Shown piece by piece: positions 6,860 to 55,559 of a stretch of DNA of 64,000 nt (its first letter is position 1; the number at the start of each line of letters is the position of its first letter). The translations under genes were made by a program, and so were the position numbers. Where the stretch lies: positions 62,001-126,000 of the forward strand of contig CAIZWN010000076.1 of assembly GCA_903936705.1 (NCBI GenBank), written 5' to 3'. The notes under the pieces are model-generated. The model was not told the origin of the DNA. It was given only the letters and a program-made list of their open reading frames with translations, and did no database searches. Source of the DNA: an uncultured Myxococcales bacterium (GTDB taxonomy: Bacteria; Myxococcota_A; UBA9042; DTJE01).

Positions 6860-6892
6860 GTGGCAACTCCAGTGAAATGAAAAGTAGCCGCT

Positions 6893-7642: not shown

Positions 7643-7748
7643 GATGCCCCGCCTGGAAACGGTCGGATCCTTCGATGAAGTCTACAACGGGGTGGTCGCG
7701 GTTGCCACGGATGCCGAGGCCGCGTCGCCGGTGTGACCCGATTCCGCC

Positions 7749-7765
7749 TGGAAGGTGTCCTTCCA
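7749..7765. promoter_or_regulatory. Palindrome 1 upstream of the ATP-citrate-lyase-like genes
   Basis: TGGAAGG, TGT and CCTTCCA form a perfect 17-bp inverted repeat 129 bases before the first ATP-citrate-lyase-like gene. Its core AAGGTGTCCTT matches palindrome 2, centred 30 bp further downstream. Confidence 0.6.
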
Positions 7766-7779
7766 AGAGTATTACGACT

Positions 7780-7794
7780 CAAAGGTATCCTTTG
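7780..7794. promoter_or_regulatory. Palindrome 2 upstream of the ATP-citrate-lyase-like genes
   Basis: CAAAGG, TAT and CCTTTG form a perfect 15-bp inverted repeat whose core AAGGTATCCTT differs from palindrome 1 at one base. Centre-to-centre distance is 30 bp, close to three helical turns, as expected for two dimers of one regulator bound on the same face. Confidence 0.6.
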
Positions 7795-7893
7795 CGTGTT
7801 CTCTAATAGCCATCCATGTGTCATGTATCGGGACCCGGGACCCCAGGAGGACCGGTGCTCCAGATTTTTTCCAGATTCGATTGAGGGTGGACC

Positions 7894-9171: not shown

Positions 9172-9173
9172 CC

Positions 9174-11900: not shown

Positions 11901-11915
11901 GTGTGGCTGCCACAC
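11901..11915 (+). terminator. Hairpin directly after the ATP-citrate-lyase-like operon
   Basis: GTGTGG, CTG and CCACAC form a six-pair stem that begins with the first base after the stop codon. No T-run follows, so termination is only suggested by position. Confidence 0.35.
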
Positions 11916-12028
11916 GACCGGCGTCGAGCTGCAGGACCAGGTCTCATGGTCAGCTGGTCATTGAGACATCGCAGTAGATTCGCTGGTCAGCAGGCGCGTC
12001 GTCGGGGAAGTTGTGCGCCGCGTGGGTT

Positions 12029-12937
12029 TCAGCGAGAAACAGCCCCTTGCAGCCAAACCTGGATCCGGTCGGCCACGGCGCCTGGCTGTTCCAGCGGCAG
12101 CATGTGACTTACGCCCGGGATCTCTATCGCCTCGCCGTTTCGCACAAGGCGCTCGAACTTGCGCAAGGAGGCCCGCGACAGGGCGTTCGAATGTTCGCCG
12201 CGCACCAGCAGTATTGGCACGGTAGAGCGTCGCACGAGGTTCCATGGGCTCGCCGGCGTGGATCGGAAGATCGCCGCCTCCCATTCCTTGGGGTACCTCA
12301 GGCGCAAGCCGCCCTCGGGGGCCTGCTCCAGTCCGGTGTCCAGATAGGCGTCGAAACATTCCTCCCGGAAATCGCGAAACAGTGGCTTGTCACGCCAGGC
12401 TCGACGCGCCTCGGCCCTGGACGGCCAGCGGTCACGTCGACGCATGGCCCCGGCGACGATTGGGGTACGGTCGACCCGGTGCAGCCGCTGCATCGCGCCC
12501 CACAGGATCGACAGGGGGCCGCTGAAGAACGCCGGATCCACCAGAACCAGTGCCCGGAACAGCCCTGGATCGTCGACCGCGGCCCAAAGGCTGCAAATCG
12601 CCCCCAGACTATGGCCCAGCCCAACCGATCCACGGAAGCCGTTTGAATCGACCGCCTTCTTCAGGTCCAGGGCCAGCGGCGACCAGTCGTGCAGTTCCGT
12701 CGGGTCAGATCCCGGCCACATGGGGCGGGATTCGAGGCTTGCCACCCGGTATTCCGGCAGGAAGCAGCGCAAAAAGGGACCGTAGATGCGCGGGGAAAAC
12801 CCGTTGGCATGGCCGAAGTGCATCAGTTGGCCGGTGCCTCCCCAGTCGATCCACGCTGCAGGAGGATTTGCGGCCCCAGGAGGAATCCCGGCCACCGTGG
12901 GAATCCCGTCAGCAGCCTTTCCGCCTTTGGTTTTCAC
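12029..12937 (-). CDS. Alpha/beta-hydrolase-fold protein
   Basis: This 302-residue cytoplasmic protein has the alpha/beta-hydrolase pattern: an oxyanion-hole stretch HANGF (43-47), the nucleophile elbow GLGHSLGA with Ser 110, and a late His in GVSHMLP. The acid usually lies in the strand reading ILLVRGEHS. The substrate cannot be told; related proteins act on esters or lactones. The GTG start at 12937 is preceded by GGGAGG seven bases away and overlaps the stop of the Nudix gene by four bases, so the two are translationally coupled. It is the last gene of the alr-hemL-Nudix-hydrolase operon. Confidence 0.85.
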   Translation of the reverse strand: MKTKGGKAADGIPTVAGIPPGAANPPAAWIDWGGTGQLMHFGHANGFSPRIYGPFLRCFLPEYRVASLESRPMWPGSDPTELHDWSPLALDLKKAVDSNGFRGSVGLGHSLGAICSLWAAVDDPGLFRALVLVDPAFFSGPLSILWGAMQRLHRVDRTPIVAGAMRRRDRWPSRAEARRAWRDKPLFRDFREECFDAYLDTGLEQAPEGGLRLRYPKEWEAAIFRSTPASPWNLVRRSTVPILLVRGEHSNALSRASLRKFERLVRNGEAIEIPGVSHMLPLEQPGAVADRIQVWLQGAVSR

Positions 12938-13503
12938 GACCGCGCCTCCCGGGCAACTACGCGCCTTGCGAATTCCAGCGCGTTGATGACCAGTGCATGA
13001 TCGATCGCGCCAGACGCAATCATGGCGTCCACCTCGTCCCAGGTGGCCTCGAACGACTCGATGGCCTCGCGTTCCTCCAGGCGGGGCGGACCGTCGGGTG
13101 TCGCATCCAGCGCCACGAACGTGTGCAGGAAGTTGCGTTGCAACGCCGGGTTGGGGCGCAACCGGCCCGTCCGGATCATCTTGCGACAGCGGTAGCCGGT
13201 TTCTTCGTCCAGTTCCCGCGAGGCGCTGTCCTGCGGGTCCTCGCCAGGGTCAATGATCCCGCCGGGGACCTCGATGGCGACCTCGTCCGATCCAGCCCGC
13301 CACTGGCGAATCAGGACGACCTTCCCCTGGGGTGTCACCGGAACCACGTTCACCCAGTCGTCTGCCAGGATAACGTAGAACCCGAACTGCCCTGCGCCGT
13401 CTGGCCGCGCGCAAGTCTCCTCCACGATGCGGAAGATTCGGCAGTCGACCACCGGTTTCTGGTCCAGCCGGCGCCACGGGGTCACACCTTTCAAGTCGGC
13501 CAT
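12934..13503 (-). CDS. Nudix hydrolase, ADP-ribose pyrophosphatase-like
   Basis: This 189-residue protein has a complete Nudix box (G-x5-E-x7-R-E-x2-E-E-x-G) in GGIIDPGEDPQDSASRELDE followed by ETG, which binds the metals used to split nucleoside diphosphate-linked substrates. The N-terminal strand (VDCRIFRIVEETC) and the EVPGGI approach to the box resemble ADP-ribose/ADP-sugar pyrophosphatases. ATG 13503 is chosen because AAGGAG lies six bases upstream, although the frame stays open for 25 more codons. It sits 37 bases after hemL and overlaps the alpha/beta hydrolase gene by four bases. Confidence 0.9.
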   Translation of the reverse strand: MADLKGVTPWRRLDQKPVVDCRIFRIVEETCARPDGAGQFGFYVILADDWVNVVPVTPQGKVVLIRQWRAGSDEVAIEVPGGIIDPGEDPQDSASRELDEETGYRCRKMIRTGRLRPNPALQRNFLHTFVALDATPDGPPRLEEREAIESFEATWDEVDAMIASGAIDHALVINALEFARRVVAREARS

Positions 13504-13540
13504 CGTGATCTCCTTGTTCATCAGCGGGGCGCTTCCGGAT

Positions 13541-14842
13541 TCACATCGTTCGGAATGCCTCGCGGGCCGCCTGGACAACGTGGTCGATCTCGGCCGGGCC
13601 GTGGGCCGCGGAAAGGAAGGCCGCCTCGAACTGGGAAGGTGGCAGCGAGACTCCCAGGTTTCGCATACGGTGGAACCAGCGTCCGAACGCCTTGGTGTCG
13701 CTGGTCTTCGCCGATTCCAGGTCGGTGACCGGCGTTCCCGTGAAGAACACCGTGAACATCGATCCGATGCGGTTGATGGTCACCGTTACGCCGGCCGCCG
13801 CCGCCGCCGCTGCCAGCCCGTCGCACAGCGTGGCAGAGTTTCGTTCGATAGCCGGGTAGGGGTCGGTAGCCTGAAGGACCCGCAGGGTCGCCAGGCCCGC
13901 CGCCACAGACAGAGGGTTTCCGGACAAGGTTCCAGCCTGGTAGACCGGCCCCACCGGCGACACCATCTGCATGACTTCGCGCCGGCCTCCGTAGGCGCCG
14001 ACCGGCAACCCGCCACCGATGATCTTGCCCAGGCAGGTCAGGTCGGGCTGCAGCCCCAGCAGCGACTGGGCGCCATGAAGCGCCACGCGGAAGCCCGTCA
14101 TGACCTCGTCGCAGATCAGCAGCGCGCCGTGCCGCCGCGGAATATCGTTCAATGCGGCCACGAACGCCGGGGTCGGCGTCACCACGCCCATGTTACCCAC
14201 GTAGGGTTCGACGATGACCGCCGCAATCTGCCCGCCGGCTTCCTGGAAAGCCTTTTCCAGCGCGGCAGGATCGTTGTACGGCAGCGTGATCGTATGAGCG
14301 GCGAATTCCGCCGGCACGCCTGCGCTGTCGGGTGCGCCGAAGGTCAACGCCCCCGAACCGGCCTTGACCAGCAGGAAGTCCGCGTGTCCGTGATAGCACC
14401 CCTCGAACTTGACCAGCTTGGACCTGCCCGTGAAGCCTCGGGCCACACGAACCGCGCTCATGGTGGCCTCGGTGCCGCTGTTCACCAGCCGTACCTGCTC
14501 CAGACCCGGCATCAGTCGTCGCAGCGTCTCGGCCATTTCGACCTCGCCCTCGGTGGGCGCGCCGTAGGACATGCCGTGGTCCAGCGCCGCACGGATGGCC
14601 GCCACTACCTCCGGGTGCCGGTGTCCCAGCACCAGAGGTCCCCACGACAGGATCAGATCCACGTATCGGTTTCCATCGACATCGACCACCCAGGCCCCAT
14701 CCCCGCCTGCCGCAAAGAATGGACCGCCCCCGACCGACCGCAATGCACGTACCGGGCTGTTCACGCCTCCGGGGATCGATTCCAGCGCTCGGGCCATCAA
14801 GGCCTCCGAGCGGTCCATGCACAGTTCCTTTCCGTCATTCAT
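13541..14842 (-). CDS. hemL: Glutamate-1-semialdehyde 2,1-aminomutase
   Basis: This PLP enzyme moves the amino group of glutamate-1-semialdehyde to give 5-aminolevulinate, the C5-pathway entry to heme. The 433-residue length is normal. Signatures include the N-terminal [11 protein letters not shown], the cofactor-binding stretches [13 protein letters not shown] and [10 protein letters not shown], the strand [12 protein letters not shown], and the Schiff-base Lys in [11 protein letters not shown]. The frame is open 38 codons further upstream, but ATG 14842 has AAGGAGG five to ten bases before it. It lies 41 bases downstream of alr. Its presence means the organism makes heme precursors from glutamate. 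Confidence 0.97.
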
Positions 14843-27167: not shown

Positions 27168-27220
27168 GAATGGAGTGAGCCGGCGGGAGAGGGCGGGCGT
27201 TGAGTACGGGCGGATTTGCC

Positions 27221-27315
27221 TCCCCCACCGGCTAGGGGGAACTGGAACCCTTGTGGGGTCCGGCACGACCCGGTTTTGGCACCGCTCGGACCGGCAACTA
27301 AGAGGATAATTCCTC
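27221..27315 (+). ncRNA. Structured region between tnaA and the exonuclease gene
   Basis: Four stems can be drawn by eye. Stem 1 is TCCCCC (27221-27226) with GGGGGA (27235-27240). Stem 2 is GGAACCC (27244-27250) with GGGGTCC (27255-27261), one mismatch. Stem 3 is GGTCCG (27257-27262) with CGGACC (27287-27292). Stem 4 is GAGGA (27302-27306) with TCCTC (27311-27315), followed by ACGGTTTT. Stems 2 and 3 share bases and exclude each other, as in a switching leader. It may instead be a complex tnaA terminator. No known riboswitch or tRNA matches. Confidence 0.35.
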
Positions 27316-27404
27316 ACGGTTTTACAGTCAACCATGGGGCCCTGGAATTTTGGGTGGTAAATTCATCGGGGTGCGAGGCGGCGGTCGCAAGGAACGGAGG
27401 ACAT

Positions 27405-28202
27405 GTGGCGGGATGGCGAGATCTTCCACTGGTTGGTCTGGATACCGAAACCACCGGATTGTCGGTCGTGGAGGACAGGATCTTCGAGATTGCAGTTGTG
27501 ACTTTCGAGGGCGGTTGCATTTCCGACCCGTTCTGCGAACTTATGGATCCGACGCGACCACTTTCTGACGCCGCTGCCTTGAAGACAGGCGTGACCGATA
27601 GCGATCTGGCTGGCCGGCCGACATTTGCCCACTTTGCGCCCGAGATCCTTCGGCGCATCGAGGGGAGAATAGTCGTTGGCTATAACCTGATCGGTTACGA
27701 CATGCCTTTGCTGAAGGCTGAACTGGCTCGGGTGGGGCTGGAACTGCCGGACTGCCACATGGTTGACGTGTTGATCTTTGCTCGAGCCCTGATGCCGGGT
27801 GGCCGTCACCGTCTGGAGGAAGCCGTCCGGCATTTTGCCGTTCCCATGGACAACGCGCATCGAGCCAGTGCTGATGCCGAGGCTACGGTGCGGTTGCTGC
27901 TGGCGATGGCGAAGGATCTGCCATCGGAACTGCCCGACCTGCTGCGCCTGCAGGCACAGTGGCAGGCGGAACAGCGGGCCAAGCGGGCGATGTGGCGATC
28001 CAAGCCGTCGCAAGGCTCGCGCGAAGTTCTGCGTGGCGATATGTCCCCCGGTGCCGGACTCCTGGATGACATGGGCAGGCCCAGCCTTGGGCCGTCCTAT
28101 CTCTATGGGAAGGAGATAGACCCGCTGAGGGCCTTCCTGCAGAACTGGTTCAACAGCCTGCCGGCACGCGATGCAGCGAAGGGCGAAGGCGGGATTTCGT
28201 AG
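27405..28202 (+). CDS. DnaQ-like 3'-5' exonuclease
   Basis: This 265-residue protein has the three DEDDh exonuclease motifs: Exo I DTETTGL (about 13-19), Exo II GYNLIGYDMPLL, and Exo III HRASADAEAT with the catalytic His and Asp. Such domains proofread or trim DNA or RNA with two metal ions. The region after about residue 185 is rich in Gln, Arg and Trp and has no recognised domain. GTG 27405 is chosen because GGAGG lies four bases before it and the motif I strand starts ten residues in; the frame remains open upstream, through the structured region. A second, shorter exonuclease of the same superfamily is encoded at 36705-37415. Confidence 0.85.
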   Translation: MAGWRDLPLVGLDTETTGLSVVEDRIFEIAVVTFEGGCISDPFCELMDPTRPLSDAAALKTGVTDSDLAGRPTFAHFAPEILRRIEGRIVVGYNLIGYDMPLLKAELARVGLELPDCHMVDVLIFARALMPGGRHRLEEAVRHFAVPMDNAHRASADAEATVRLLLAMAKDLPSELPDLLRLQAQWQAEQRAKRAMWRSKPSQGSREVLRGDMSPGAGLLDDMGRPSLGPSYLYGKEIDPLRAFLQNWFNSLPARDAAKGEGGIS

Positions 28203-34893: not shown

Positions 34894-36717
34894 ATGGATG
34901 AAATAGCCCGCTTTTTGTCCATGCACCCACCCTGGCGCTCGTTGCCGGCGGACCAGGTGCGGGGGGTCGCTGGAGTCCTGGAGATCGAGTATTTCGCGCG
35001 CGGCGCCAGGCTGTTGTCGGCCGGAGGCCGTCCTCCGTCCCGTCTGGCGATCATCCGCAGCGGTTCGGTGGAGGTCGTTCGCCACGGTCGAAAGGGCAGC
35101 GAGCTGGTCGATCGCCTGGAAGAGGGGGACGTCGTCGGGGCGGAATTGTTCCTGATGCACCGGTCGCCCGATGTTGATGCCGTTGCCCGGGAGGACTCGC
35201 TGGTCTACCTGGTGCGGCGGGAGCATCTGGATCCTCTGCTGGAGTTTCCTGCCGTCAGGACCTTCCTGCTGGGTACCTCGGGCCAGCGGGTGAGGGATTT
35301 CGTCAGTAATGCAGCTACTTCGGACAACCGCGGCTTCATGTCATCCCCCATCGGGGACCTTGTGACGCGTCCGCCGCTGGCCTGCGCGCCAGATACGCCA
35401 GTGGACGAGGTTGCTGGTCGAATGCGGGACGGTGGGGTGGGTTCGATGCTGGTCCAGTCGGAACCGCCAGGTATCGTGACCGATCGGGACCTGCGTGACC
35501 GGGTTCTGGCGGTAAAAGGGGACCCGCTTGGGCCGGTCGGGGCGATTGCCAGTCGACTCCTGGGCCAGGTTCCGCATGACGCCAATGTGTTTGATGTCAT
35601 GGCCCTGCTGGTCGAAAGTGGGTTGCGCCACCTGCCTGTGACACGGGAGGGCCGGATCGTCGGGGTGGTGACGGATACCGACATCCTGAGGCGGCAATCC
35701 GGCAGCCCGCTGCTGCTGCACAGCGTGCTGCAACGGGCGCACGATCCGGGCGGGATTGCGTCCTGGGTTCGCTTGGCCGCAGCCGCGATTGTCGGGATGA
35801 ACGATGATGGAATCGGGGCTGTCAACGTCGGCCGGATGTCGTCCCTGGCTGCCGACCTGTTGCTGCGACGTCTGGTGGCCGATGCCACGGCGCGCCTGGG
35901 GGCTGCTCCTGCCGCATGGGCATGGCTTGCCACGGGTGCCGAGGGGCGGCGCGAGGCATTCTGGCCTTCGTCCCGGGCCGGGTTCGTCTTGTTCGAGGAG
36001 GGCGCATCCGCAGGGATGGTCCGGTGGTGTGCCGATCTGGCGGCCCAGGTTTCGGCGGGACTTCTTGCCGCCGGCCTTCGTCCCGCGATTGCAGCCCCGT
36101 GCCCCGCTGATTCGGGTGGCATGGGGCCGGCGTCGGCGGTTTTGATCGATGCCATTGTCCGCGATCATTTTCTTCTGCTGCCGGCCCTGCTGGACGCGCG
36201 GCCGGTGGCCGGGTCCATGAACCCAGGGCCTTTCCTGAAGGAATTGCGTGATGCGGCGCGCGCGGCCGTTTTGACGGGGCGCCAGGTGTTGAAGGGCCTG
36301 CATCGTCCCCCAAAGGGGTTTTTTCACGACGAGGTCCTGGAGGCTGGCGGCACGATTGCCGATCGACTGGACCTGGATGCCCGCTGCCTCAGGTTGCTGG
36401 TCGTGCTGGCCAGGGTGGTGGCGGTCCGCGGAGGCATAGCGGCAACCTCGACACCGGAAAGGCTGGTTGCATCGGCCGATGCCGGAGTCCTGTCGCGCGA
36501 ACTGGCCATGGATCTGGCTGCTTCGTGGGAATTCGTTGCCGGGCTGTGCCTGCGGACGGGTTGGGCTGCCAAGGCGCAGGGCGAATGCCTCCTGGTTCCC
36601 GATTCCCTGTCGCCTACCGATCGTCGTTTGTTGAAGGACGTGTTCTCGGTTATCGGGGAGGGCCTTTCGTCGATTTTCGGGGATCTTTCCGCCGCGGAGG
36701 ACCCGTGGACCAATTGA
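34894..36717 (+). CDS. cNMP-like/CBS-pair/DUF294 protein with degenerate nucleotidyltransferase motif
   Basis: This 607-residue cytoplasmic protein has four parts. First comes a cyclic-nucleotide-type beta-roll (about 15-125); its phosphate-binding segment (VVGAELFLMHRSPDVDAVA) lacks the usual Arg. A CBS pair follows (about 155-265, IVTDRDLRDRV and VVTDTDILRR). Then comes the DUF294 putative nucleotidyltransferase related to GlnD (about 335-470) and the DUF294 C-terminal domain (to 607). In an active domain the motif is GSEGRxEQ...TDQDNA. Here it reads TGAEGRREAFWPSSRAGF, so the metal-binding Asp pair is lost. It may therefore sense or hold a ligand without transferring nucleotides. ATG 34894 follows GGGAG; a TACAAT box lies 21 bases upstream. 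Its end overlaps the exonuclease gene by 13 bases. Confidence 0.85.
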   Translation: MDEIARFLSMHPPWRSLPADQVRGVAGVLEIEYFARGARLLSAGGRPPSRLAIIRSGSVEVVRHGRKGSELVDRLEEGDVVGAELFLMHRSPDVDAVAREDSLVYLVRREHLDPLLEFPAVRTFLLGTSGQRVRDFVSNAATSDNRGFMSSPIGDLVTRPPLACAPDTPVDEVAGRMRDGGVGSMLVQSEPPGIVTDRDLRDRVLAVKGDPLGPVGAIASRLLGQVPHDANVFDVMALLVESGLRHLPVTREGRIVGVVTDTDILRRQSGSPLLLHSVLQRAHDPGGIASWVRLAAAAIVGMNDDGIGAVNVGRMSSLAADLLLRRLVADATARLGAAPAAWAWLATGAEGRREAFWPSSRAGFVLFEEGASAGMVRWCADLAAQVSAGLLAAGLRPAIAAPCPADSGGMGPASAVLIDAIVRDHFLLLPALLDARPVAGSMNPGPFLKELRDAARAAVLTGRQVLKGLHRPPKGFFHDEVLEAGGTIADRLDLDARCLRLLVVLARVVAVRGGIAATSTPERLVASADAGVLSRELAMDLAASWEFVAGLCLRTGWAAKAQGECLLVPDSLSPTDRRLLKDVFSVIGEGLSSIFGDLSAAEDPWTN

Positions 36718-37415
36718 TGCACTGGCGCCGTCGTCGCGCCCTTGGTCTGGCGAACCTGCCGCCAGCGGTCCGTTCCTGGCTGGCCGCGCCATGGCCACCG
36801 TCCGACGGCCTGTGGCGCCAGACTCCATTCACGGCGCTGGATCTTGAAACCAGTGGTCTCGATGTCCGCAAGGACGAAATTCTTGCCATCGGAACGGTGG
36901 ATATCGACGAGGGGCGGATACGGATGGAGACGGCCTGGAGCACGCTGGTCTCCCCGTCCCCGGGGCACGTGGTAGGCGTCCCGTCGATCCGGATCCACGG
37001 CCTGCTGCCCCAGCGCCTTTCGACTGCCCCAAGGTTGCAGGACGTGCTTCCGGCCTTGATTGAACGCCTGGTCGGGAGGGTGCTGGTGGTTCACGTTGCC
37101 GAGGTGGATCGTCCCTTTCTTGACCGGGCGTTCAAGGCGGCCTGGGGTTGCGGCGCCTGGATGCCGGTGCTGGACACGGCCAGGCTGTCTGCCTGGTTCG
37201 ACCACCACCCGCAGTTGAACGGGCGGCGCGGCGCCGAGGCGTCTCCGCTGAGGCGGCTGGGGGACATCGCGAAGGAACTAGGTGTGCCGGTGGGGCGGCA
37301 GCACGACGCCCTCGAGGACGCAATGATCTGTGCCCAAGTGCTGCTGGCGCTGGCTTCGCGGATGGAGTCGATGGGCATGGGGACGCTGGGCGCCCTGCTG
37401 AAGGTTGGGACCTAG
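36705..37415 (+). CDS. DnaQ-type 3'-5' exonuclease coupled to the DUF294 gene
   Basis: This 236-residue protein has all three DEDDh motifs: Exo I DLETSGLD (about 44-51), Exo II VVHVAEVDRPFLDRAF, and Exo III GRQHDALEDAMICAQ. It is a stand-alone exonuclease of the DNA polymerase III epsilon/PolC type without a polymerase-binding tail. GTG 36705 is chosen because GGAGG lies four bases before it; this makes the gene overlap the upstream stop by 13 bases, so translation is coupled. From general knowledge, exonucleases of this kind are often found beside CBS/DUF294 proteins and ActP-type symporters in proteobacteria. The role is unsettled. Confidence 0.87.
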   Translation: MDQLMHWRRRRALGLANLPPAVRSWLAAPWPPSDGLWRQTPFTALDLETSGLDVRKDEILAIGTVDIDEGRIRMETAWSTLVSPSPGHVVGVPSIRIHGLLPQRLSTAPRLQDVLPALIERLVGRVLVVHVAEVDRPFLDRAFKAAWGCGAWMPVLDTARLSAWFDHHPQLNGRRGAEASPLRRLGDIAKELGVPVGRQHDALEDAMICAQVLLALASRMESMGMGTLGALLKVGT

Positions 37416-37460: not shown

Positions 37461-40358
37461 ATGCACTGGAAGCGCTTTGTCATCCGGATCATGCTGCCCA
37501 CGGGGCTGGCCGTAGTTCTGTTCATGGCGCTGTTGTTCGTCGTCCTTCTGCCCGAGGTCGAGCGGAACTTCATGGAACGCAAGCGCGAGTTGATTCGCGA
37601 GCTTACACGTTCCGCGTGGTCGGTTCTGAAGGAATACGAGGCCGAGGAGCGTGCCGGCAGGATGTCCCGAGAGGAGGCCCAGGTAGCCGCGGCTGCACGG
37701 ATTCGGGACCTGCGGTACGGCCCCGAGGACAAGGACTACTTCTGGATCACCGACAAGCAGCCCCGGATGATCATGCACCCCTTCAGGACGGAACTGATTG
37801 GCAAGGATGTCTCGGATTTCAAGGATCCGCGCGGCAACCGGGTGTTTGTCGAGTTCGTGAAGCGTGTGCGCGAGGATGGAAGCGGGTACGTCGATTACGT
37901 CTGGCAGTGGAAGGATGACCCGGGTCGCCTGGTTCCCAAGGAGTCCTACGTCCAGGGTTTCGACCCCTGGGGCTGGGTCATAGGAACCGGCATCTACACC
38001 GAGGACGTTCGTGCCGAGATCGAGGCCCTGACGGGGAGGATGGTACGAACCTCGGTGGTCTTCATGTTCGTGGTGTCACTGATCCTGCTGTTCGTGACGC
38101 TGCAAAGCCTGCGCATAGAAAGGGAGCGCGGCGACGCCGAATCCGCCCTGCGGGACTCCCACGAACGTTATCGTGCGCTGGTCGAGGCATCCACCGAGGG
38201 CACGCTGATGGTGCTGGACGGGCGTTGCGCCTACAGCAATCCGGTACTCCAGGAGATGCTTGGCCGGGAGGCCGAAGAAATATCGAACCTTTCCCTTCTG
38301 GATCTGCTGCCCGACCGCGAGGACGACCCCGCGCGACGTTTCCTTCAGGACGTCCTGGAGGACCGTCCGGCGCCATCGCAGTTCGAGGCCCAGTTGCGCC
38401 ATTCGGAAGGGCGCCTGGTGAACGTTCTGCTGACGGCAACCCGCATTGCGGTCAGCGACCGTCCAGGCGTAATCGTCACAGCTCGGGACATCGGTCGGAC
38501 CAAGCAGGTCGAGGAGGAACTGGGGGAAAGTCGCGAGCGCTACAAGGCCCTGCGCGCCGTGATCGGCATCGGTGTGTTCAGGACAATTGCCGGCCGGCGG
38601 GGTCGCCTTATGGAAATGAATCCGGCAGGTCGTCGGCTGTTCGGTTTTCCGGAGGACCAGCCTATTGCGGGCACCGCCCTGATGGACATGTGTTTCGACC
38701 CCGAGGATCGCGACTCGATCGCATCGACGCTTGCTCGCGAGGGGGCGTTGCGTGACCGCGTGCTGCGTGTACGGCGCCTGGACGGATCCTTCCGGACCGT
38801 GCGGGTGTCGGCCGTCATGGTCCGTGACGAGGGCGGCTTCCCCCGCTATTGCGACGGGATGGTCGAGGATGTCACCGAAGCCGAGCGCCACGTGTCGGAA
38901 CGCGAGGCGCTGATCGAGGAACTTCAGACCTCCCTGCGCTTCCTGGACGAACCGGTGTCGCAGCGAGCTGCCGACGTTGTGTCCTGCCCGCTTGATGCAT
39001 CGATCGCATCCGCGGCGGCCCTGATGACCCGGGCTGGACGCGGCGCCATCCTCGTCACGGGCGCGGCAGGTGCGCCGGTTGGAATAATGACCGATCGCGA
39101 CCTTCGCGAACGGGTCGTTTCCGAGGGTTATGACGCCCATCGGCCAGTGTACGAGGTGATGACGGCCCCGATCCAGTCCATCGGCGCCGAGGCCCCGACG
39201 TGGGAAGCCCTGTTGAGAATGAGGGATCGTGGCGCGCGCCATCTGGCGGTTCGCGACGGTTCGGGGCGGGTTGTAGGCATGATTGCATCCGACGACCTCA
39301 TGGCGTTCCACCGCTACTCGTCGGCAGTTCTGGTGCGCGAGGTTTCAACGACCCGGTCCGTTGCCGAAATAGTCGCTGTCCGGTCCCGCCTGCCTGTGCT
39401 GGTGAAGGCGCTTGCGGACTGGGGAGCAAGGCCTCGCACCGTCACGCGCGTGATCACTTCGGTCTCGGATGCCATAGCCTTGCGACTGGTCGATCTTGCG
39501 ATCCAGCAGTACGGGCCGCCACCAGCGCGGTTTGCCTTCCTGGCGCTGGGCAGCGAGGGGCGCGAGGAACAGACACTGGCCACCGACCAGGACAATGCGA
39601 TTGTATTCGAGGACGTCCCTGCGGATCAGAAGGAGGCCTGCATGGCCTGGTTCAACCGCCTGGGAGAACAGGTCTGCAACGGTCTGCACGAGGCCGGGTA
39701 CGCGTTGTGCCAGGGTGACGCGATGGCGCGCAACCCCAAGTGGTGCCAACCCTTGTCGCGATGGAAGGAAATGTTCGGCCGGTGGATACGCACCGGGACG
39801 CCCCAGGACCTGCTGTCCGTGAACATGTTCTTCGATTTTCGTGCCGTTGCCGGCGATCCGGCCCTGGCCGCGGATTTGCGCGGTCATATCGACGGCGAAC
39901 TGCGCGCAAACCCTTCCTTCTTCGTCCAGTTTGCCCAGAACGCCTTGCTGTACAAACCTCCTATCGGCCTTTTCGGGAAGATCGTGACCGGCGCCGAGGG
40001 CCAGGGACCTGGGACTTTCAGCGTCAAGGATGCCATGATGCCCATCGTGAACTTCGCTCGGCTGTATTCCCTGAAAAACGCAGTGGATCGTACGAACACG
40101 CTGGAACGCCTTCACCGTCTGCACGACGTAGGCGTGCTTTCGTCCTCCAGCCATTCCGAGATCGTGGCCGCTTACGATGTCCTGATGGAAATCCGCCTGC
40201 GCCACCAGGCGGCGGCGGCCGTCAGAGGGACGGACCCGGATAACGCGGTCAATCCCAAGGAACTGACGGAACTCGAGGATGTCATGGTTCGCAAGGCACT
40301 AGGTCAGGTTTCCCTGGTCTTGAAGAAGGTCTCGTTCGACTTCTTGGGGTCGGCCTGA
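37461..40358 (+). CDS. Membrane Cache-PAS-PAS-CBS-DUF294 sensor with intact nucleotidyltransferase motif
   Basis: This 965-residue protein has two membrane helices (about 8-30 and 196-214) enclosing a periplasmic single Cache domain (DKDYFWITDKQPRMIMHPFR, 91-110, and GWVIGTGIY). Two PAS domains follow (about 237-348 and 360-475, the first ending VTARDIGRTKQVEEE). A CBS pair lies at about 500-620 (IMTDRDLRERV). The DUF294 nucleotidyltransferase has its motif GSEGREEQTLATDQDNA complete (697-713), and a DUF294 C-terminal domain ends the protein. A small carboxylate is a typical ligand of this kind of Cache domain. The output would be nucleotide transfer by the GlnD-like domain instead of a kinase, which is inference. 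It lies 45 bases after the exonuclease gene, and its last codons form the first unit of a 20-bp tandem repeat. Confidence 0.88.
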   Translation: MHWKRFVIRIMLPTGLAVVLFMALLFVVLLPEVERNFMERKRELIRELTRSAWSVLKEYEAEERAGRMSREEAQVAAAARIRDLRYGPEDKDYFWITDKQPRMIMHPFRTELIGKDVSDFKDPRGNRVFVEFVKRVREDGSGYVDYVWQWKDDPGRLVPKESYVQGFDPWGWVIGTGIYTEDVRAEIEALTGRMVRTSVVFMFVVSLILLFVTLQSLRIERERGDAESALRDSHERYRALVEASTEGTLMVLDGRCAYSNPVLQEMLGREAEEISNLSLLDLLPDREDDPARRFLQDVLEDRPAPSQFEAQLRHSEGRLVNVLLTATRIAVSDRPGVIVTARDIGRTKQVEEELGESRERYKALRAVIGIGVFRTIAGRRGRLMEMNPAGRRLFGFPEDQPIAGTALMDMCFDPEDRDSIASTLAREGALRDRVLRVRRLDGSFRTVRVSAVMVRDEGGFPRYCDGMVEDVTEAERHVSEREALIEELQTSLRFLDEPVSQRAADVVSCPLDASIASAAALMTRAGRGAILVTGAAGAPVGIMTDRDLRERVVSEGYDAHRPVYEVMTAPIQSIGAEAPTWEALLRMRDRGARHLAVRDGSGRVVGMIASDDLMAFHRYSSAVLVREVSTTRSVAEIVAVRSRLPVLVKALADWGARPRTVTRVITSVSDAIALRLVDLAIQQYGPPPARFAFLALGSEGREEQTLATDQDNAIVFEDVPADQKEACMAWFNRLGEQVCNGLHEAGYALCQGDAMARNPKWCQPLSRWKEMFGRWIRTGTPQDLLSVNMFFDFRAVAGDPALAADLRGHIDGELRANPSFFVQFAQNALLYKPPIGLFGKIVTGAEGQGPGTFSVKDAMMPIVNFARLYSLKNAVDRTNTLERLHRLHDVGVLSSSSHSEIVAAYDVLMEIRLRHQAAAAVRGTDPDNAVNPKELTELEDVMVRKALGQVSLVLKKVSFDFLGSA

Positions 40359-40400
40359 AATTCTTGGGGTCGGCCTGAGACTCCTGGGGTCGGCCCAAGA
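40341..40400 (+). repeat. Three 20-bp tandem repeats spanning the end of the sensor gene
   Basis: Units at 40341-40360, 40361-40380 and 40381-40400 share TTGGGGTCGGCC at the same phase, with changes growing towards the third. Unit 1 encodes the sensor's last residues FLGSA and its stop. Unit 2 therefore holds a copy of the stop outside the gene. Confidence 0.9.
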
Positions 40401-40449
40401 CTCTTTGAGTCATCAACCGGGATCATTGGCGCTGTCCGAGGCACAAAGT

Positions 40450-40474: not shown

Positions 40475-40504
40475 TTGACCTTGCATCCAAAGCCAAAATA
40501 GACT
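40475..40504 (+). promoter_or_regulatory. Candidate promoter of the DUF485-symporter-porin genes
   Basis: TTGACC (40475-40480) and TAGACT (40499-40504) are 18 bases apart. Transcription would begin near 40511, giving a leader of about 80 bases before ATG 40591. Confidence 0.6.
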
Positions 40505-40514
40505 CGCACCCATC

Positions 40515-40543
40515 AGTACTCAGACGCGCTGCGTCGGAGTACT
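40515..40543 (+). promoter_or_regulatory. 29-base hairpin/palindrome at the start of the symporter mRNA
   Basis: AGTACTC pairs with GAGTACT and, after an A/G mismatch, GACGC pairs with GCGTC around a GCT loop. Twelve of thirteen pairs match. It begins about four bases after the predicted transcription start, so it may be a 5' stabilising hairpin or an operator. Confidence 0.6.
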
Positions 40544-40590
40544 AGCATTTCGGCGGGCGGGAAACAAAAGGTCGACAGGGAGGTGCCTTG

Positions 40591-40878
40591 ATGTTGCATG
40601 AACCGGCGGCAAAGCAGGGGCGGGATCCGGCGTCCCCTTACAAGACCAGGCTGGGTGTCTGGATGTTTCTGGCGTACGGGCTGATTTACGCCGGGTTTGT
40701 CGCGATCAACCTTCTGTGGCCGGGCGCCATGGAGGAGGTTGTTGCGATGGGCCTGAACTTGGCCGTCCTGTACGGCTTTGGATTGATCATTGTCGCCCTC
40801 ATCCTCGCGGTCATCTACAACGCCGCTTGCATGAAGGAAGAGAAGCGGTTGGAAGGTTCCGCCGGCGGGGAGGGCTGA
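40591..40878 (+). CDS. DUF485 small membrane protein
   Basis: This 95-residue protein has two membrane helices (about 22-44 and 56-78) and a charged C-terminus. It matches the DUF485 family (YjcH in E. coli), encoded directly before ActP-type acetate symporters. The exact role is unknown; a helper of the symporter is assumed. ATG 40591 has GGGAGG seven bases upstream. Three bases separate its stop from the symporter ATG, so the two are made together. Confidence 0.9.
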   Translation: MLHEPAAKQGRDPASPYKTRLGVWMFLAYGLIYAGFVAINLLWPGAMEEVVAMGLNLAVLYGFGLIIVALILAVIYNAACMKEEKRLEGSAGGEG

Positions 40879-40881
40879 GTC

Positions 40882-42810
40882 ATGGATTGGATGCCGGTCG
40901 CAATTTTTGTCGCGTTCGTTGGCGCCGTCCTCGGCATGTCATTCTTCTTTGCCCGGAAGGCCAAATCGGCCGCCGGCTACTACGCTGCCGGTGGCAATAT
41001 CCACTGGTCGGTCAATGGCATCGCCTTCGCGGGCGATTACCTGTCAGCCGCCTCGTTCCTGGGCATCTGCGGCATGATTGCCACGGCCGGATACGATGGT
41101 TTCCTTTACTCCATCGGGTATCTTGCCGGCTGGATCGTGGCGCTGTTCGTCGTGGCCGAACCGATGAAACGCCTGGGCAAGTACACCTTCACAGATGCGC
41201 TTGATTCCAAGTTCAACAGCAAGGGAATCCAGTTGGCCGCGGCAATCAGCACGCTGGTCGTATCCATTTTCTACCTGATTCCCCAGATGGTCGGCGCCGG
41301 CGTCCTGGTGACCCCGCTGCTGGGCCTGCCCCATGCGGTGGGCGTCATGATGGTCGGCGGCATAGTCATCGTGATCGTCTCGACCGCTGGCATGACTTCC
41401 ACGACCTATGTCCAGTTCATCAAGGGCGGCCTGCTGGTCGTCTTCTCGTCCATCATTGTAGTGGCCTTGCTGGTTCGTGGCCTTTCGACCGAGCCCGATC
41501 AGGGCGGGAGCGTCCCGTTCTACAAGTACGCCACCATCGCGGCGACGGATCAGAATGGCACCCTGGTGCTGGATGATCCTACCTGGCAGATTGCCGGGAC
41601 GAAGGATGTCGCAGGAACGACGTTCGTAAAGACGCTGAAGGACGGGAAGACCACGTGGTTCAAGAAGTCCGTGAAGGACGGCCACATCAGCCTGTACGAG
41701 TGTCAGTACCAGGCGGTGGCGGCTGATGGCGCAACGGTTGTCAACGGCGCTCCGGCCACGCCCGAGAACAAACTTCGGCAGGTAGGCAACCTGGAAGCCA
41801 TCGAAGGCAAGAAGGGCGCCGAGGCAGCCACCGGTTCCCTTGGGCCGTTTGATTTCCTGGCGAAGATCGGCAGTCCGGACACCGTGGTCAAGACGTGGAA
41901 GTCGGTGAAGTTCGACGCCGACGGCCAGAAACTTACCGTCTTTGCCCCGACATACACACCCGGCAACAAGGTGCTGAAGCCAGGGCAGAAGTTCAAGGTC
42001 GAAGGCACGCCGATCGAGAAGTTCGACTTCATCAGCCTGATGCTGGCGCTGTTCCTGGGCACGGCGGCCCTGCCCCACATCCTGATTCGCTACTACACGG
42101 TCGCGACGCCGGCAGCGGCCCGCAAGTCCACTATCGTCGCCATTGCCGCGATCGGGTTCTTCTATATCCTGACCCTGTTCATGGGCCTCGGCGCGATGTC
42201 CAGCGGCGTCGTAAACCCCATGGACAACAACATGTCAGCGCCACTGCTGGCGCGGTCCTTCGGGACCATCCTGTTCGCGATCATCTCGGCTATCGCTTTT
42301 GCCACGGTCCTTGGCACGGTCAGCGGCCTCATCGTGGCCGCCTCGGGTGCCGTTGCCCACGACCTGATGGACCGGTTCATGGGCATGCAGCTTACCGACC
42401 GCAAGAAGGTCGCAGCCGGCAAGATCGCGGCGCTGGTGGTTGGCGTGGTTGCCATCATCCTGGGCATCCTGTTCCAGGGGGTCAACGTCACCTTCCTGGT
42501 CGGCTTGGCCTTCGCAGTCGCGGCGTCGGCCAACCTGCCTGCCATCCTGATGCTGCTGTTCTGGAAGAAGACCACAGCGAAGGGCATCGTGGCGTCGATC
42601 CTGGTGGGCATCTCGGTGTCCATCGGAATCATCCTGTTCTCGCCTGACATGTACGAACTGTACGGCATGGCGCGCGCTGACGCCCCGATTCCGTTTGCCA
42701 ATCCGGGCCTCTTCAGCATTCCTCTCTCTTTCCTGACGCTGGTCGTGGTATCGCTGATGACCCAGAGCGGGGGCAACGCCGGCAGCAACCCCGGCGGGCA
42801 CGTGGAGTAA
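40882..42810 (+). CDS. actP: ActP-type sodium:solute symporter with large extramembrane insertion
   Basis: This 642-residue inner membrane protein belongs to the sodium:solute symporter family. The N-terminal part (SAAGYYAAGGNI, GIAFAGDYLSAASFLGICG, GYDGFLYSIGYLAGW) matches the acetate/glycolate permease ActP closely. E. coli ActP has 549 residues. The extra length is one soluble insertion at about 202-382 (from LSTEPDQGGSVPF to GTPIEKFDF) between two membrane helices, with possible sensing or lid function. The remaining helices follow in the usual order (TAALPHILIRYYTV, ASGAVAHDLMDRF, AASANLPAILMLLFW). The preceding DUF485 gene supports acetate or another short carboxylate as substrate. Sodium coupling is inferred from the family. 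Confidence 0.9.
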   Translation: MDWMPVAIFVAFVGAVLGMSFFFARKAKSAAGYYAAGGNIHWSVNGIAFAGDYLSAASFLGICGMIATAGYDGFLYSIGYLAGWIVALFVVAEPMKRLGKYTFTDALDSKFNSKGIQLAAAISTLVVSIFYLIPQMVGAGVLVTPLLGLPHAVGVMMVGGIVIVIVSTAGMTSTTYVQFIKGGLLVVFSSIIVVALLVRGLSTEPDQGGSVPFYKYATIAATDQNGTLVLDDPTWQIAGTKDVAGTTFVKTLKDGKTTWFKKSVKDGHISLYECQYQAVAADGATVVNGAPATPENKLRQVGNLEAIEGKKGAEAATGSLGPFDFLAKIGSPDTVVKTWKSVKFDADGQKLTVFAPTYTPGNKVLKPGQKFKVEGTPIEKFDFISLMLALFLGTAALPHILIRYYTVATPAAARKSTIVAIAAIGFFYILTLFMGLGAMSSGVVNPMDNNMSAPLLARSFGTILFAIISAIAFATVLGTVSGLIVAASGAVAHDLMDRFMGMQLTDRKKVAAGKIAALVVGVVAIILGILFQGVNVTFLVGLAFAVAASANLPAILMLLFWKKTTAKGIVASILVGISVSIGIILFSPDMYELYGMARADAPIPFANPGLFSIPLSFLTLVVVSLMTQSGGNAGSNPGGHVE

Positions 42811-42853: not shown

Positions 42854-44095
42854 ATGCGGATCTCGATCAATACGGCACGCGCGGTCGCTGTAGCGCTGGT
42901 TCTGTTCGTGTCGGTTCCGGCGTTTGCGTGGAAGTTCGAACTGGGCGAGAACACCAACCTGAACATCGACTACCTGCTGCAGGTTCAGGCGCAGTTCAAG
43001 GAGAAGTCTGCTCCGAACAAGATCGACTGGAGCAAGGACTTCTTTGTTCGTCGTTCGCGAATTCTGCTGTTTGGCGACGTGTGGAAGGGCATCTCGTTCT
43101 TCATGGAGACCGACCAGGTCAACTTCGGCAAGGGCGGCAACTGGGATGTTTCGTTCTTCGTCCAGGACGCGTTCATGACCTTCAAGGTCGTGGACGAGTT
43201 CATGGTGGACGTCGGAATGATCCTGCTGCCGTTCTCCAGGGCGAATTTCCAGGGCGCCATCGGCCTGAACGCGCTGGACTACCATACCGGGGTCATCAAG
43301 TTCATCGATGGATCCACCAAGGTCTGGCGAGATGCCGGCGTTCAGTTGCGCGGCTATGCGTTCAAGAAGAAGTTCATGTATCGGGTAGGCGTGTTCAACG
43401 GCGCCCAGAACATGAACCTGATGAAGAACGCGAAGGGCGAAGCGATCGTCGATGTGGACAAGAAGGCGGCCCTGGGTTCGAATCCCGAGGACTGGCCGCG
43501 GTTTACCGGCCACGTGCGCTACAGCATCATGGGCACCGAGGCCGACACCTTCCCCAAGGGGATCTACTTCGCGACGTCACCGATCATTTCCATCGGCGCG
43601 GGCTTCGATTATCAAAGCGGCGCCGCGATGAGCCAGCCGTCCGTGCTGGACAAGGACAAGAAGATAACCACGGCAGGCAAGGTGACCTGGGCTGCTGGGG
43701 CCACGGCAGACTTCTTCCTTGATATCCCGTTCGGCAAGGACTTCAACCACGAGATCGTGTTCCAGACGGCCTTCTTCTGGTACAACCACGGCAAGGAATT
43801 GGCGTGGGACAAGGATGGCCTGGTCTCGACGGTGGTTGCGTCGAAGAACTCGGGCTTCGGCGTCATGGGCGAACTGGGCTACCGGTTCATGTTCTTCGAG
43901 CCGGTGATTTCGGTCGATTATTTCGGCAGCAAGCAGGCCAAGCAGGACCTGCTGGCCGTTCGCGGCGGCTTGAATTTCTGGATTCGCAAGCATGCTGCGA
44001 ACATCAAGCTGGAGTTCGGAGCCGAGAAGATCGGAGACCTCGGTGTTGTCCCATGGAGCAAGACCTTCACCACGCAGGCTCAGTTGTTCTTCTAG
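42854..44095 (+). CDS. Phosphate-selective-porin-like outer membrane protein
   Basis: This 413-residue protein has a cleavable signal peptide (about 1-25, ending PAFA) and many alternating strands, ending in the C-terminal Phe typical of outer membrane barrels (QLFF). DFFVRRSRILLFGDVWKGISFFMETD and DVGMILLPFSRAN are typical of the OprO/OprP porin family. Located 43 bases after the symporter and transcribed with it, it probably lets the same solute pass the outer membrane. No phosphate genes are near, so the family name should not be taken as its substrate. Confidence 0.88.
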   Translation: MRISINTARAVAVALVLFVSVPAFAWKFELGENTNLNIDYLLQVQAQFKEKSAPNKIDWSKDFFVRRSRILLFGDVWKGISFFMETDQVNFGKGGNWDVSFFVQDAFMTFKVVDEFMVDVGMILLPFSRANFQGAIGLNALDYHTGVIKFIDGSTKVWRDAGVQLRGYAFKKKFMYRVGVFNGAQNMNLMKNAKGEAIVDVDKKAALGSNPEDWPRFTGHVRYSIMGTEADTFPKGIYFATSPIISIGAGFDYQSGAAMSQPSVLDKDKKITTAGKVTWAAGATADFFLDIPFGKDFNHEIVFQTAFFWYNHGKELAWDKDGLVSTVVASKNSGFGVMGELGYRFMFFEPVISVDYFGSKQAKQDLLAVRGGLNFWIRKHAANIKLEFGAEKIGDLGVVPWSKTFTTQAQLFF

Positions 44096-53744: not shown

Positions 53745-55559
53745 TTAAGTTGGGTCCTGCGGCCCGACGGGGCGGTCAACCAGCGCCCCACGGATCACCC
53801 AGCGCCACAGGCCGTAGAAGCAGGCCGCCGAAACCGCCAGGAGCCCAAGGCCCAGCAATGGCTGCCCTAGGATGACCTTGCCCAGGCCGAACATGGCGCA
53901 GAACACGAATACCACAGCCAGGCCGAACTGGCCCCAGGTGCCCAGGTTGATGCTGCTGGCGTCCCCCTTGCAGGCGCGTGCGGCTATGGGCCCCCAGAAC
54001 ATTGCGGGCGGCCGAACCCGCTCGAAGAATGCCAACAGCTTCTCGTCAGGATCAGGCCGGGTGACCAGCGCGGTAACGATGGTCACCAGGGCCGTGGTGG
54101 CCACCACCAGCAGCAGGCGCAAGGCCGATGCGTCGGCGGTGTCGGCATCGAGTCCGGGAAGGAACTGCACGGTGAGTGCGACCGACACCGAGGTGACCAT
54201 TGCGACCAGTTCGGTGGTCGCGTTGACCCGCCACCAGAACCAGCGAAGCAACGCGACCAGGCCCAGGCCAGACATCAGTTCCATCTTGAAACGGAAGGCT
54301 CCAAGAACGGAAGGCAGGACCAGGGCAAGCGATCCTGCGACGACCGCGACAGCCACGGTGAACCCCCTGGATGCGGTCAGGTAGTGTCGCTGGGATGCCT
54401 TGGGAACAAGGAAGCGCCTGTAGATATCGTTCGACAGGTAGGATGCGCACAGGTTCAGCAGGCCTGTGAAAGTGGACATGAAGGCCGCGAAGAACGACGC
54501 CACCATGATCGCCCGGGGTATGCTGGGCAGCAGATCCACCACCATCCTCGGGTAGGCTGTCTCGCCGTCCTTCAGGGAGGGGTACAGCACCATCGATACC
54601 AGCGCCGCGATGTACCAGGGCCACGATCGTATGATCCACTGCACTGCCATGTTCCAGATCCCGGCCAGCAGGGCATGGCCCTCGTTCTTGCACGACAGAA
54701 ACCGCTGGGCCCGCTGGCCGCTGCCGTCGACGTAGGGTGTCGACCACCACATCACGCCCAGGTAGACGCCCACCGTAAGCGCCGAGAAGGTCTCGCCGGC
54801 CATCGAGGGGAGGAAGTCGAGGACGCCGCTGCCGGTAGCCAGGTTTTCGCTTGCGCCGCCTTGCGGAAGGGCGGCCAGTTTTTCGCGCAGGCCGCTGGCC
54901 CCGCCGACCTTGTACAGGGCGACGCCGGCAAGGAGGATGGCCCCCAGCATGGCCACGGTGAACTCGACCATCTCGGTGAAGACCACTGCCAGCAGGCCGG
55001 AGGTGACACTGTAGGCCAGGCCGATGACGATCAGCGCGGCGACCACCAGCGCGTCCGCGGGCACTGCCAGCCCAAGGAGTTCAACCGTTTCAGGCAGTTC
55101 GATAAGGGTCCGGACGATCTTCGTCATGCCCAGAGTGACCCACGCAAGCGTGATGAGTTCGAGGACCGTGCCGCGGAAAAGGGCCGTGGCCCCGCGAAGC
55201 ACGGCCGCGGGCTTGCCGGCATAGCGGAGTTCGATAAGTTCGGCATCCGTGATCACCGACGATCTGCGCCACAGGCGGGCAAAGAAGAACGCGATCAGCC
55301 CGCCGCCCAGGATGCTGCCCCAGTAGAACCAGGCGCCTGACAGGCCGTGTTCCCGGATCATCCGCGTCGTGTGCAGCGGAGTATCACTGGAAAAGCTGGT
55401 GGCCAGCATGGCCGTTCCAGCCAGCCACCAGGGGAGGGTCCTGCCGGCGGTGAAGAAGCCGTCCATCGAACGGGTCTTCCTGCGCCGCGAAGTCCATAGG
55501 CCAAGGCCCAGGATTCCCAGCAGGTACAGGCCGACGATGACCCAGCCGGTAGCATCCAT
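53745..55559 (-). CDS. Sodium:solute symporter, probably for a sugar
   Basis: This 604-residue inner membrane protein has about 13 hydrophobic helices. The N-terminal region (SMDGFFTAGRTLPWWLAGTA and MLATSFSSDTP) is typical of sodium:solute symporters, with the conserved Ser residues near the sodium site. The helix GLLAVVFTEMVEFTVAMLGA is another family landmark. Located ten bases before the alpha-mannosidase gene, it is probably the uptake system for mannose-containing sugars; the substrate is inferred only from that neighbour. ATG 55559 has GGAG seven bases upstream. It is only distantly like the ActP-type protein at 40882-42810 and lacks a long soluble insertion. Confidence 0.9.
   Translation of the reverse strand: MDATGWVIVGLYLLGILGLGLWTSRRRKTRSMDGFFTAGRTLPWWLAGTAMLATSFSSDTPLHTTRMIREHGLSGAWFYWGSILGGGLIAFFFARLWRRSSVITDAELIELRYAGKPAAVLRGATALFRGTVLELITLAWVTLGMTKIVRTLIELPETVELLGLAVPADALVVAALIVIGLAYSVTSGLLAVVFTEMVEFTVAMLGAILLAGVALYKVGGASGLREKLAALPQGGASENLATGSGVLDFLPSMAGETFSALTVGVYLGVMWWSTPYVDGSGQRAQRFLSCKNEGHALLAGIWNMAVQWIIRSWPWYIAALVSMVLYPSLKDGETAYPRMVVDLLPSIPRAIMVASFFAAFMSTFTGLLNLCASYLSNDIYRRFLVPKASQRHYLTASRGFTVAVAVVAGSLALVLPSVLGAFRFKMELMSGLGLVALLRWFWWRVNATTELVAMVTSVSVALTVQFLPGLDADTADASALRLLLVVATTALVTIVTALVTRPDPDEKLLAFFERVRPPAMFWGPIAARACKGDASSINLGTWGQFGLAVVFVFCAMFGLGKVILGQPLLGLGLLAVSAACFYGLWRWVIRGALVDRPVGPQDPT

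Follow-up and report, generated by a model that had tools for sequence, protein, structure and literature searches.

We analysed a 64,000-nucleotide stretch of DNA from an uncultured Myxococcales bacterium (contig CAIZWN010000076.1, positions 62,001 to 126,000; hereafter the window) around an open reading frame (ORF) of 965 amino acids (aa), here called S, that occupies exactly window positions 37461-40358 on the + strand. A Pfam domain search, in which every match of S exceeds its curated cut-off, resolves the protein into a membrane sensor joined to a nucleotidyltransferase module, confirming the Cache-PAS-PAS-CBS-DUF294 order with a complete catalytic motif that a first-pass annotation had read from the sequence. 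S and its parts are as follows.

37461-40358, + strand: S, sensor-nucleotidyltransferase, transmembrane (TM)-sCache_2-TM-PAS-PAS-CBS-CBS-DUF294-DUF294_C (Pfam, predicted model)
37575-38027, + strand: sCache_2 domain, periplasmic, residues 39-189, with seven C2/C3-carboxylate contact residues (Pfam, alignment, fold match to 4k08)
38163-38885, + strand: two PAS domains, residues ~235-344 and ~358-475 (Pfam, model)
38982-39305, + strand: CBS pair, residues ~508-615, a possible adenine-nucleotide sensor (Pfam, model)
39387-39806, + strand: DUF294 nucleotidyltransferase domain, residues 643-782 (Pfam, fold comparison)
39549-39599, + strand: catalytic motif GSEGREEQTLATDQDNA, residues 697-713 (sequence, alignment)
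39915-40343, + strand: DUF294_C helical domain, residues 819-961, HEPN/KNTase_C-like (Pfam, fold comparison)

The sCache_2 match (E 1.9e-39) is the only one in the genome, and the PAS and CBS folds are each matched in two stretches (E 4.7e-20 and 7.4e-16, respectively). DUF294 (PF03445) scores 162.8 bits against a cut-off of 21 (E 5.4e-48) and DUF294_C (PF10335) 119.5 bits against a cut-off of 22.5 (E 1.3e-34). The Pfam scan of S found no RNA-binding domain, no SSF or kinase domain, and neither the HD hydrolase nor the ACT domains that follow the transferase in GlnD-type proteins. Among plasmids, no copy covering 80% of the full architecture was found. Short direct repeats, GGGGTCGGCC, lie immediately past the S stop codon, at 40359-40410.

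Relatives of S and its predicted ligand

Scanning GTDB genomes yielded 50 loci, the majority with near-full-length relatives of S, from Myxococcota, Chloroflexota, Armatimonadota, Lentisphaerota/Verrucomicrobiota, Fermentibacterota and Wallbacteria. With later loci included, 49 S-like proteins were scored with profiles built for this analysis, and weak DUF294 hits of ~900 aa in the phylum surveys were excluded as probable GlnD cross-matches. The relatives were retrieved with peptides of S, so that their selection has no bearing on which genes lie beside them; several contigs are not long enough to include any neighbour. An SSF gene lies within 1.5 kb of the S-like gene in 40 of the 49, across phyla. 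With 49 relatives spread across phyla, 40 of them beside an SSF gene, the architecture of S is not a chance fusion.

The Cache domain carries a recognizable ligand pocket. In PscD of Pseudomonas syringae, seven residues, Tyr90, Trp92, His103, Phe126, Tyr143, Trp145 and Lys156, contact the ligands glycolate, acetate, propionate and pyruvate (PMC5062169). When S is aligned with PscD and with Adeh_3718, the Cache domain of which was crystallised with acetate, these contacts correspond to Y93, W95, H106, F129, Y146, W148 and K160 of S, identical at seven of seven positions and invariant in 41 relatives. The predicted Cache domain superposes on 4k08 with a Z score of 24.0 and a root-mean-square deviation of 1.2 Å over 144 residues, and the nearest NCBIfam models are those of the MctS kinase and the CtpM chemoreceptor, with scores well under their cut-offs. 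Since the seven-residue pocket is conserved and the domain superposes on 4k08, short monocarboxylates are a well-supported prediction of what S senses, and the earlier proposal that S reads an external solute gains support residue by residue.

The DUF294 module and its degenerate paralogue

The DUF294 domain of S has an intact GSEGR...TDQDNA site, a pol-beta type motif of the form G-S-x-G-R...D-Q-D-N at residues 697-712. Across 41 relatives, residues G697, S698, G700, R701, E703, D709 and Q710 do not vary and D711 and N712 are at least 90% conserved, and the motif is retained by nearly all S-like proteins, locus L035 being the one clear degenerate case. Modelled alone, the 347-residue transferase module folds with a predicted local distance difference test score (pLDDT) of 90.6 and a predicted template modelling score of 0.89, and the model gives no sign against nucleotide binding. 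In comparisons made with this predicted model, the isolated module matches the N-terminal GlnE transferase (GlnE-N) with Z 27.4 at 2.8 Å over 307 residues, the C-terminal one (GlnE-C) with Z 25.4 and DrrA with Z 24.5, the matches spanning 300-307 residues. Below these rank a partial DrrA domain (Z 11.9), aminoglycoside nucleotidyltransferases (~10) and HEPN proteins (~9-10). Hailong HalB (oligodeoxyadenylate in one entry) has a Z of only 6-7; neither CD-NTases nor tRNA/CCA nucleotidyltransferases are among the structural matches listed for the module.

GlnE attaches AMP to glutamine synthetase and also removes it; the AMPylation target of DrrA is a Rab protein. The nucleotidyltransferase-like output proposed by the first-pass annotation is thus found as an intact site on a GlnE/DrrA-like fold. 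Because a shared fold is no proof of function, and because a sequence profile of the module (14 sequences) has no match in the PDB with E of 1 or less, protein AMPylation is an activity that we infer for S, one with good structural support from the predicted model.

Upstream of S lies a second DUF294 protein, which the first-pass annotation did not connect to it.

34894-36717, + strand: cNMP-CBS-DUF294-DUF294_C pseudo-nucleotidyltransferase with the catalytic Asp pair lost, ATGAEGRREAFWPSSRAGF (Pfam, alignment)

This protein has ATGAEGRREAFWPSSRAGF where ALGSEGREEQTLATDQDNAI is expected. The Asp pair is also gone in the counterparts at loci L004, L005, L007, L008, L009 and L016, and those of L007 and L009 have lost the CBS region as well. 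A dead cNMP-DUF294 gene, an exonuclease gene and an active DUF294 gene are grouped again in L113 and probably in L114, and the relatives of S with a fused PHP domain (below) have no cNMP-DUF294 partner. Dead paralogues in the same gene set indicate that the fold can serve without catalysis, and S might likewise be a sensor scaffold, its DUF294 domain binding nucleotide and regulating the symporter or the exonuclease by contact; deletion of the Pseudomonas putida DUF294 gene without a growth phenotype (PMC9927547) would agree with this. We nevertheless regard such a role as distinctly unlikely, given that nearly all relatives, whatever their phylum, retain the catalytic motif of S while the adjacent paralogue decays. 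The intact site of S next to a decaying neighbour points instead to selection for catalysis in S.

Hydrolase partners and the symporter genes

Between the pseudo-enzyme and S lies a nuclease gene, and a dedicated hydrolase of this kind, like the pseudo-enzyme in Myxococcota, was missed by the first-pass annotation.

36705-37415, + strand: DEDDh (RNase_T/DnaQ-like) 3'-5' exonuclease, candidate antagonist of S (Pfam, alignment)

The best start of the exonuclease is the GTG at 36705, preceded by GGAGG and giving a 13-base overlap with the end of the cNMP-CBS-DUF294 gene; S starts 45 bases past the exonuclease end. The DEDDh residues are intact in the window and in all aligned relatives. A further DnaQ-like exonuclease gene, at window positions 27216-28202 (+ strand), is unlinked to DUF294.

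S of the window and its nearest kin have no fused PHP domain and have the adjacent exonuclease instead, whereas in most relatives the S-like protein is extended at its N-terminus by ~240-370 residues that make up a PHP domain, expected to be cytoplasmic and ahead of the first TM helix. In L015 (7158-10889) and 36 further loci, PHP precedes TM-Cache-TM-PAS-CBS-DUF294, placing transferase and hydrolase in one polypeptide. Each of the nine metal ligands expected of PHP is conserved in 37 or all of the 38 sequences, and the nearest solved or curated enzymes are the 3',5'-nucleoside bisphosphate phosphatase 2yb1 and the RNase 7ug9/RNM. Altogether a hydrolase accompanies 47 of the 49 relatives, as a fused PHP domain (37), a PHP domain in an overlapping or adjacent upstream frame (4) or an exonuclease gene (6, the status of L008 being counted by hand), and PHP and exonuclease occur together in none of the 49. 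In a maximum-likelihood tree the exonuclease-bearing group (support 100/99) falls within the PHP-bearing proteins, with one of these, from the same family as the window, as its sister (95/88).

The nature of these hydrolases could also suggest that, upon carboxylate binding, the DUF294 module makes a free cyclic or linear (oligo)nucleotide, a second messenger that the exonuclease or PHP domain would degrade and the cNMP and CBS domains of the partner would read. Both hydrolase families act on small nucleotides and RNA (PHP near 2yb1 and 7ug9/RNase RNM on the one hand, the DEDDh exonuclease on the other), and the partner, with cNMP and CBS domains and a dead nucleotidyltransferase site, is receiver-like. 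Yet the match to protein AMPylators extends along the entire module, and all other matches are at Z 12 or below; the CBS region of the partner is lost in L007 and L009; and the PHP-fused relatives do without the cNMP partner altogether. A messenger function is therefore unlikely in our estimate.

Downstream of S, the window encodes an uptake system.

40475-40504, + strand: sigma-70-like promoter TTGACC-18-TAGACT, directly 5' of the DUF4212 gene (by eye)
40588-40878, + strand: DUF4212-type small symporter subunit, 96 aa (name assigned by size and by adjacency to SSF, following the genomes named below; unconfirmed by Pfam)
40882-42810, + strand: SSF (ActP/MctC-like monocarboxylate) symporter, 642 aa (Pfam, NCBIfam)
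42854-44095, + strand: porin, Porin_O_P/ExtI-like (domain profiles; order kept in Myxococcota relatives)

The SSF protein, which the first-pass annotation had called ActP-type, is nearest the MctC/ActP models, under their equivalog cut-offs. An insert of ~170 residues (window 41485-42030), probably periplasmic by topology, splits its SSF profile match; the symporters of the relatives are of similar length. A similar promoter pair is seen by eye in the relatives, and since the symporter genes have their own sigma-70-like promoter, sensor and transporter are probably neighbours on separate transcripts. A 29-base near-perfect inverted repeat, AGTACTC..GAGTACT, lies between the promoter and the DUF4212 gene (40515-40543); as a conserved operator this hairpin was rejected, being absent from the relatives read. 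A second SSF symporter gene of the window, a 605-aa frame, lies at 54195-55457 on the - strand.

The first-pass annotation had remarked that no histidine kinase is seen near the symporter, and this extends to the whole of the window's contig, where none of the 64 HATPase_c matches of the 96%-complete assembly is found. No CrbS-type SSF-kinase fusion was found in the assembly, where all SSF reading frames are 577-643 aa and too short for one.

Proposed control of monocarboxylate uptake and its precedents

We propose that S is a one-protein receptor for short monocarboxylates whose output is protein nucleotidylation regulating the symporter, reversed by the PHP domain or exonuclease, a reading that we consider plausible while holding it at slightly less than an even chance. 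An external acid of the acetate, propionate, pyruvate or glycolate type would be read by the periplasmic Cache domain, and the PAS and CBS domains would contribute cytoplasmic redox or energy information. Jointly, these domains would set the activity of the GlnE-like DUF294-DUF294_C transferase, most likely an AMPylating one, toward a target in or near the adjoining DUF4212/SSF uptake system. A dedicated phosphodiester hydrolase would reverse the mark or destroy the product, this being the DEDDh exonuclease of the same gene set in the window and a PHP domain of the same polypeptide in most relatives, with the cNMP-CBS-DUF294 pseudo-enzyme as a putative regulatory partner. By analogy with P. 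putida, the transferase would be a brake on uptake and the hydrolase its release.

The analogy draws on pseudomonad genetics. In P. putida KT2440, PP_0354 (a CBS protein) and PP_0353 (RNase_T) form an operon under MxtR/ErdR (PMC9927547), and P. fluorescens Pflu5625 is described as a cAMP-binding, CBS and nucleotidyltransferase protein (PMC5715377); by the papers' descriptions, PP_0354 and Pflu5625 belong to the DUF294 family. Growth of P. putida on pyruvate is impaired by loss of PP_0353 or actP-I, not of PP_0354 (PMC9927547), phenotypes that, in our own interpretation, would be expected of a release and a brake, respectively. The authors suggested mRNA decay as the role of PP_0353 and left other mechanisms open (PMC9927547). 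Their suggestion, and the trimming of 3' ends by DEDDh enzymes, would fit control at the RNA level, in which DUF294 adds nucleotides to RNA (a tRNA or mRNA 3' end), the DEDDh or PHP enzyme trims them, and translation or stability of the transport mRNA is tuned. This seems to us very improbable for S, which has no RNA-binding domain, whose nearest folds act on proteins and whose output is membrane-tied beside the symporter.

In the wider DUF294 family, an exonuclease is close by in about half of the strong DUF294 loci of Desulfobacterota and Myxococcota, often directly touching, and exonuclease-DUF294 neighbours are found in Desulfobacterota, Alphaproteobacteria and Bacteroidota. The order DUF4212-SSF-DUF294-(small genes)-exonuclease occurs in Ruegeria TM1040, Paracoccus denitrificans and Shinella, and several loci have DUF294 and SSF with no exonuclease, so that the DUF294-exonuclease pairing is common, not universal. 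In Hymenobacter (L125:5352-7962), overlapping exonuclease and DUF294 genes sit among glycoside hydrolases in a polysaccharide locus with no SSF, and the pair may therefore serve other nutrients too. Near DUF294 genes, PAS or HAMP-PAS proteins ending in RNase_T occur (L102:9260-11464, L105:10700-12901, L107:8835-12389); these are possibly sensors with a nuclease output, a mirror image of S.

Several observations weigh against reversible nucleotidylation of the transporter by S. Two of the 49 relatives, L074 and L100, which form a clade (97/98), have neither PHP nor exonuclease nearby: the neighbours of the former are radical SAM proteins and a peptidase, those of the latter (6442-14000) a double-Cache histidine kinase and a sigma-54 response regulator, and DEDDh matches elsewhere in the two genomes are not assignable to the S-like proteins. 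The tree shows the PHP-to-exonuclease exchange as having occurred once. The known substrates of exonucleases and PHP enzymes are, to our knowledge, nucleic acids or nucleotides, de-AMPylation not being among their known activities, and about half of the surveyed non-sensor DUF294 loci have no exonuclease within 7 kb. The link to GlnE and DrrA depends on predicted structure, with no PDB relative by sequence, and no assay of a DUF294 protein was found in the open-access literature. The fit to P. putida is one of analogy, PP_0354 being described without a Cache sensor and with no double mutant reported.

The first-pass annotation is thus partly supported in its interpretation that solute binding outside controls nucleotide transfer within this gene block. 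As for its claim to novelty, the open-access literature searched yielded no description of a PHP-Cache-PAS-CBS-DUF294 fusion or of acetate-type sensing leading to nucleotidylation control of a transporter, and a published table of Cache output classes lists no nucleotidyltransferase (PMC4822843). The idea of nucleotidyl transfer by DUF294 proteins near acetate transport is not itself new: for cNMP-CBS-DUF294 proteins, which in pseudomonads belong to the acetate regulon of CrbS/R (MxtR/ErdR), nucleotidylation of targets had been predicted before (PMC5715377, PMC9927547). A broader proposal, which we consider less likely than not, is that S and its relatives form an undescribed receptor class in which an extracellular Cache domain directly drives reversible nucleotidylation of a nutrient transporter, with the DUF294 writer and an eraser (PHP or DEDDh) as an interchangeable pair. 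If true, this would make PHP and DnaQ-type enzymes de-AMPylases of a new kind. For the widespread DUF294 proteins, the S locus and its relatives suggest external acetate-type acids as an input, the protein AMPylators as a fold class, the DUF4212/SSF symporter as the likely zone of the target and an exonuclease or PHP domain as an antagonist. Together with the P. putida exonuclease and transporter phenotypes, the PHP/exonuclease exchange would turn a family of unknown function into a testable case of write/erase control of nutrient uptake.

Among known systems, that of PP_0354, PP_0353 and Pflu5625 resembles S in its DUF294-type module with a CBS pair, its partner exonuclease gene and its ActP-type symporter for acetate and pyruvate (PMC9927547, PMC5715377), a gene set also present in the window as the adjacent RNase_T exonuclease (36705-37415) and the ActP-type symporter (40882-42810). 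The pseudomonad proteins, however, are not described as membrane sensors and are under transcriptional control by the CrbS/R (MxtR/ErdR) kinase system, whereas at the S locus the DUF294 module with the intact site is built into the membrane receptor itself, and it is the cNMP paralogue that has a dead catalytic site. CrbS/MxtR, an SSF-STAC histidine kinase, controls acetate or pyruvate use and, like S, is tied to the SSF family; S in contrast has neither SSF nor kinase domain. The MctS histidine kinase and the chemoreceptors McpP, PscD and CtpM share the sCache_2 type of S, with a C2/C3-carboxylate pocket in PscD and McpP, but S has a DUF294 transferase output in place of their kinase or chemotaxis domains. 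GlnE and GlnD are alike to S in the predicted fold and catalytic motif of the transferase and, in the reading proposed here, in a nucleotide mark that is written and erased by a regulatory enzyme. S lacks the tandem transferase pair of GlnE and the HD and ACT domains of GlnD, and differs from both in its membrane receptor input and in its presumed eraser, a PHP domain or an exonuclease; it looks like a membrane-receptor form of a GlnE-like write/erase system tied to monocarboxylate uptake.

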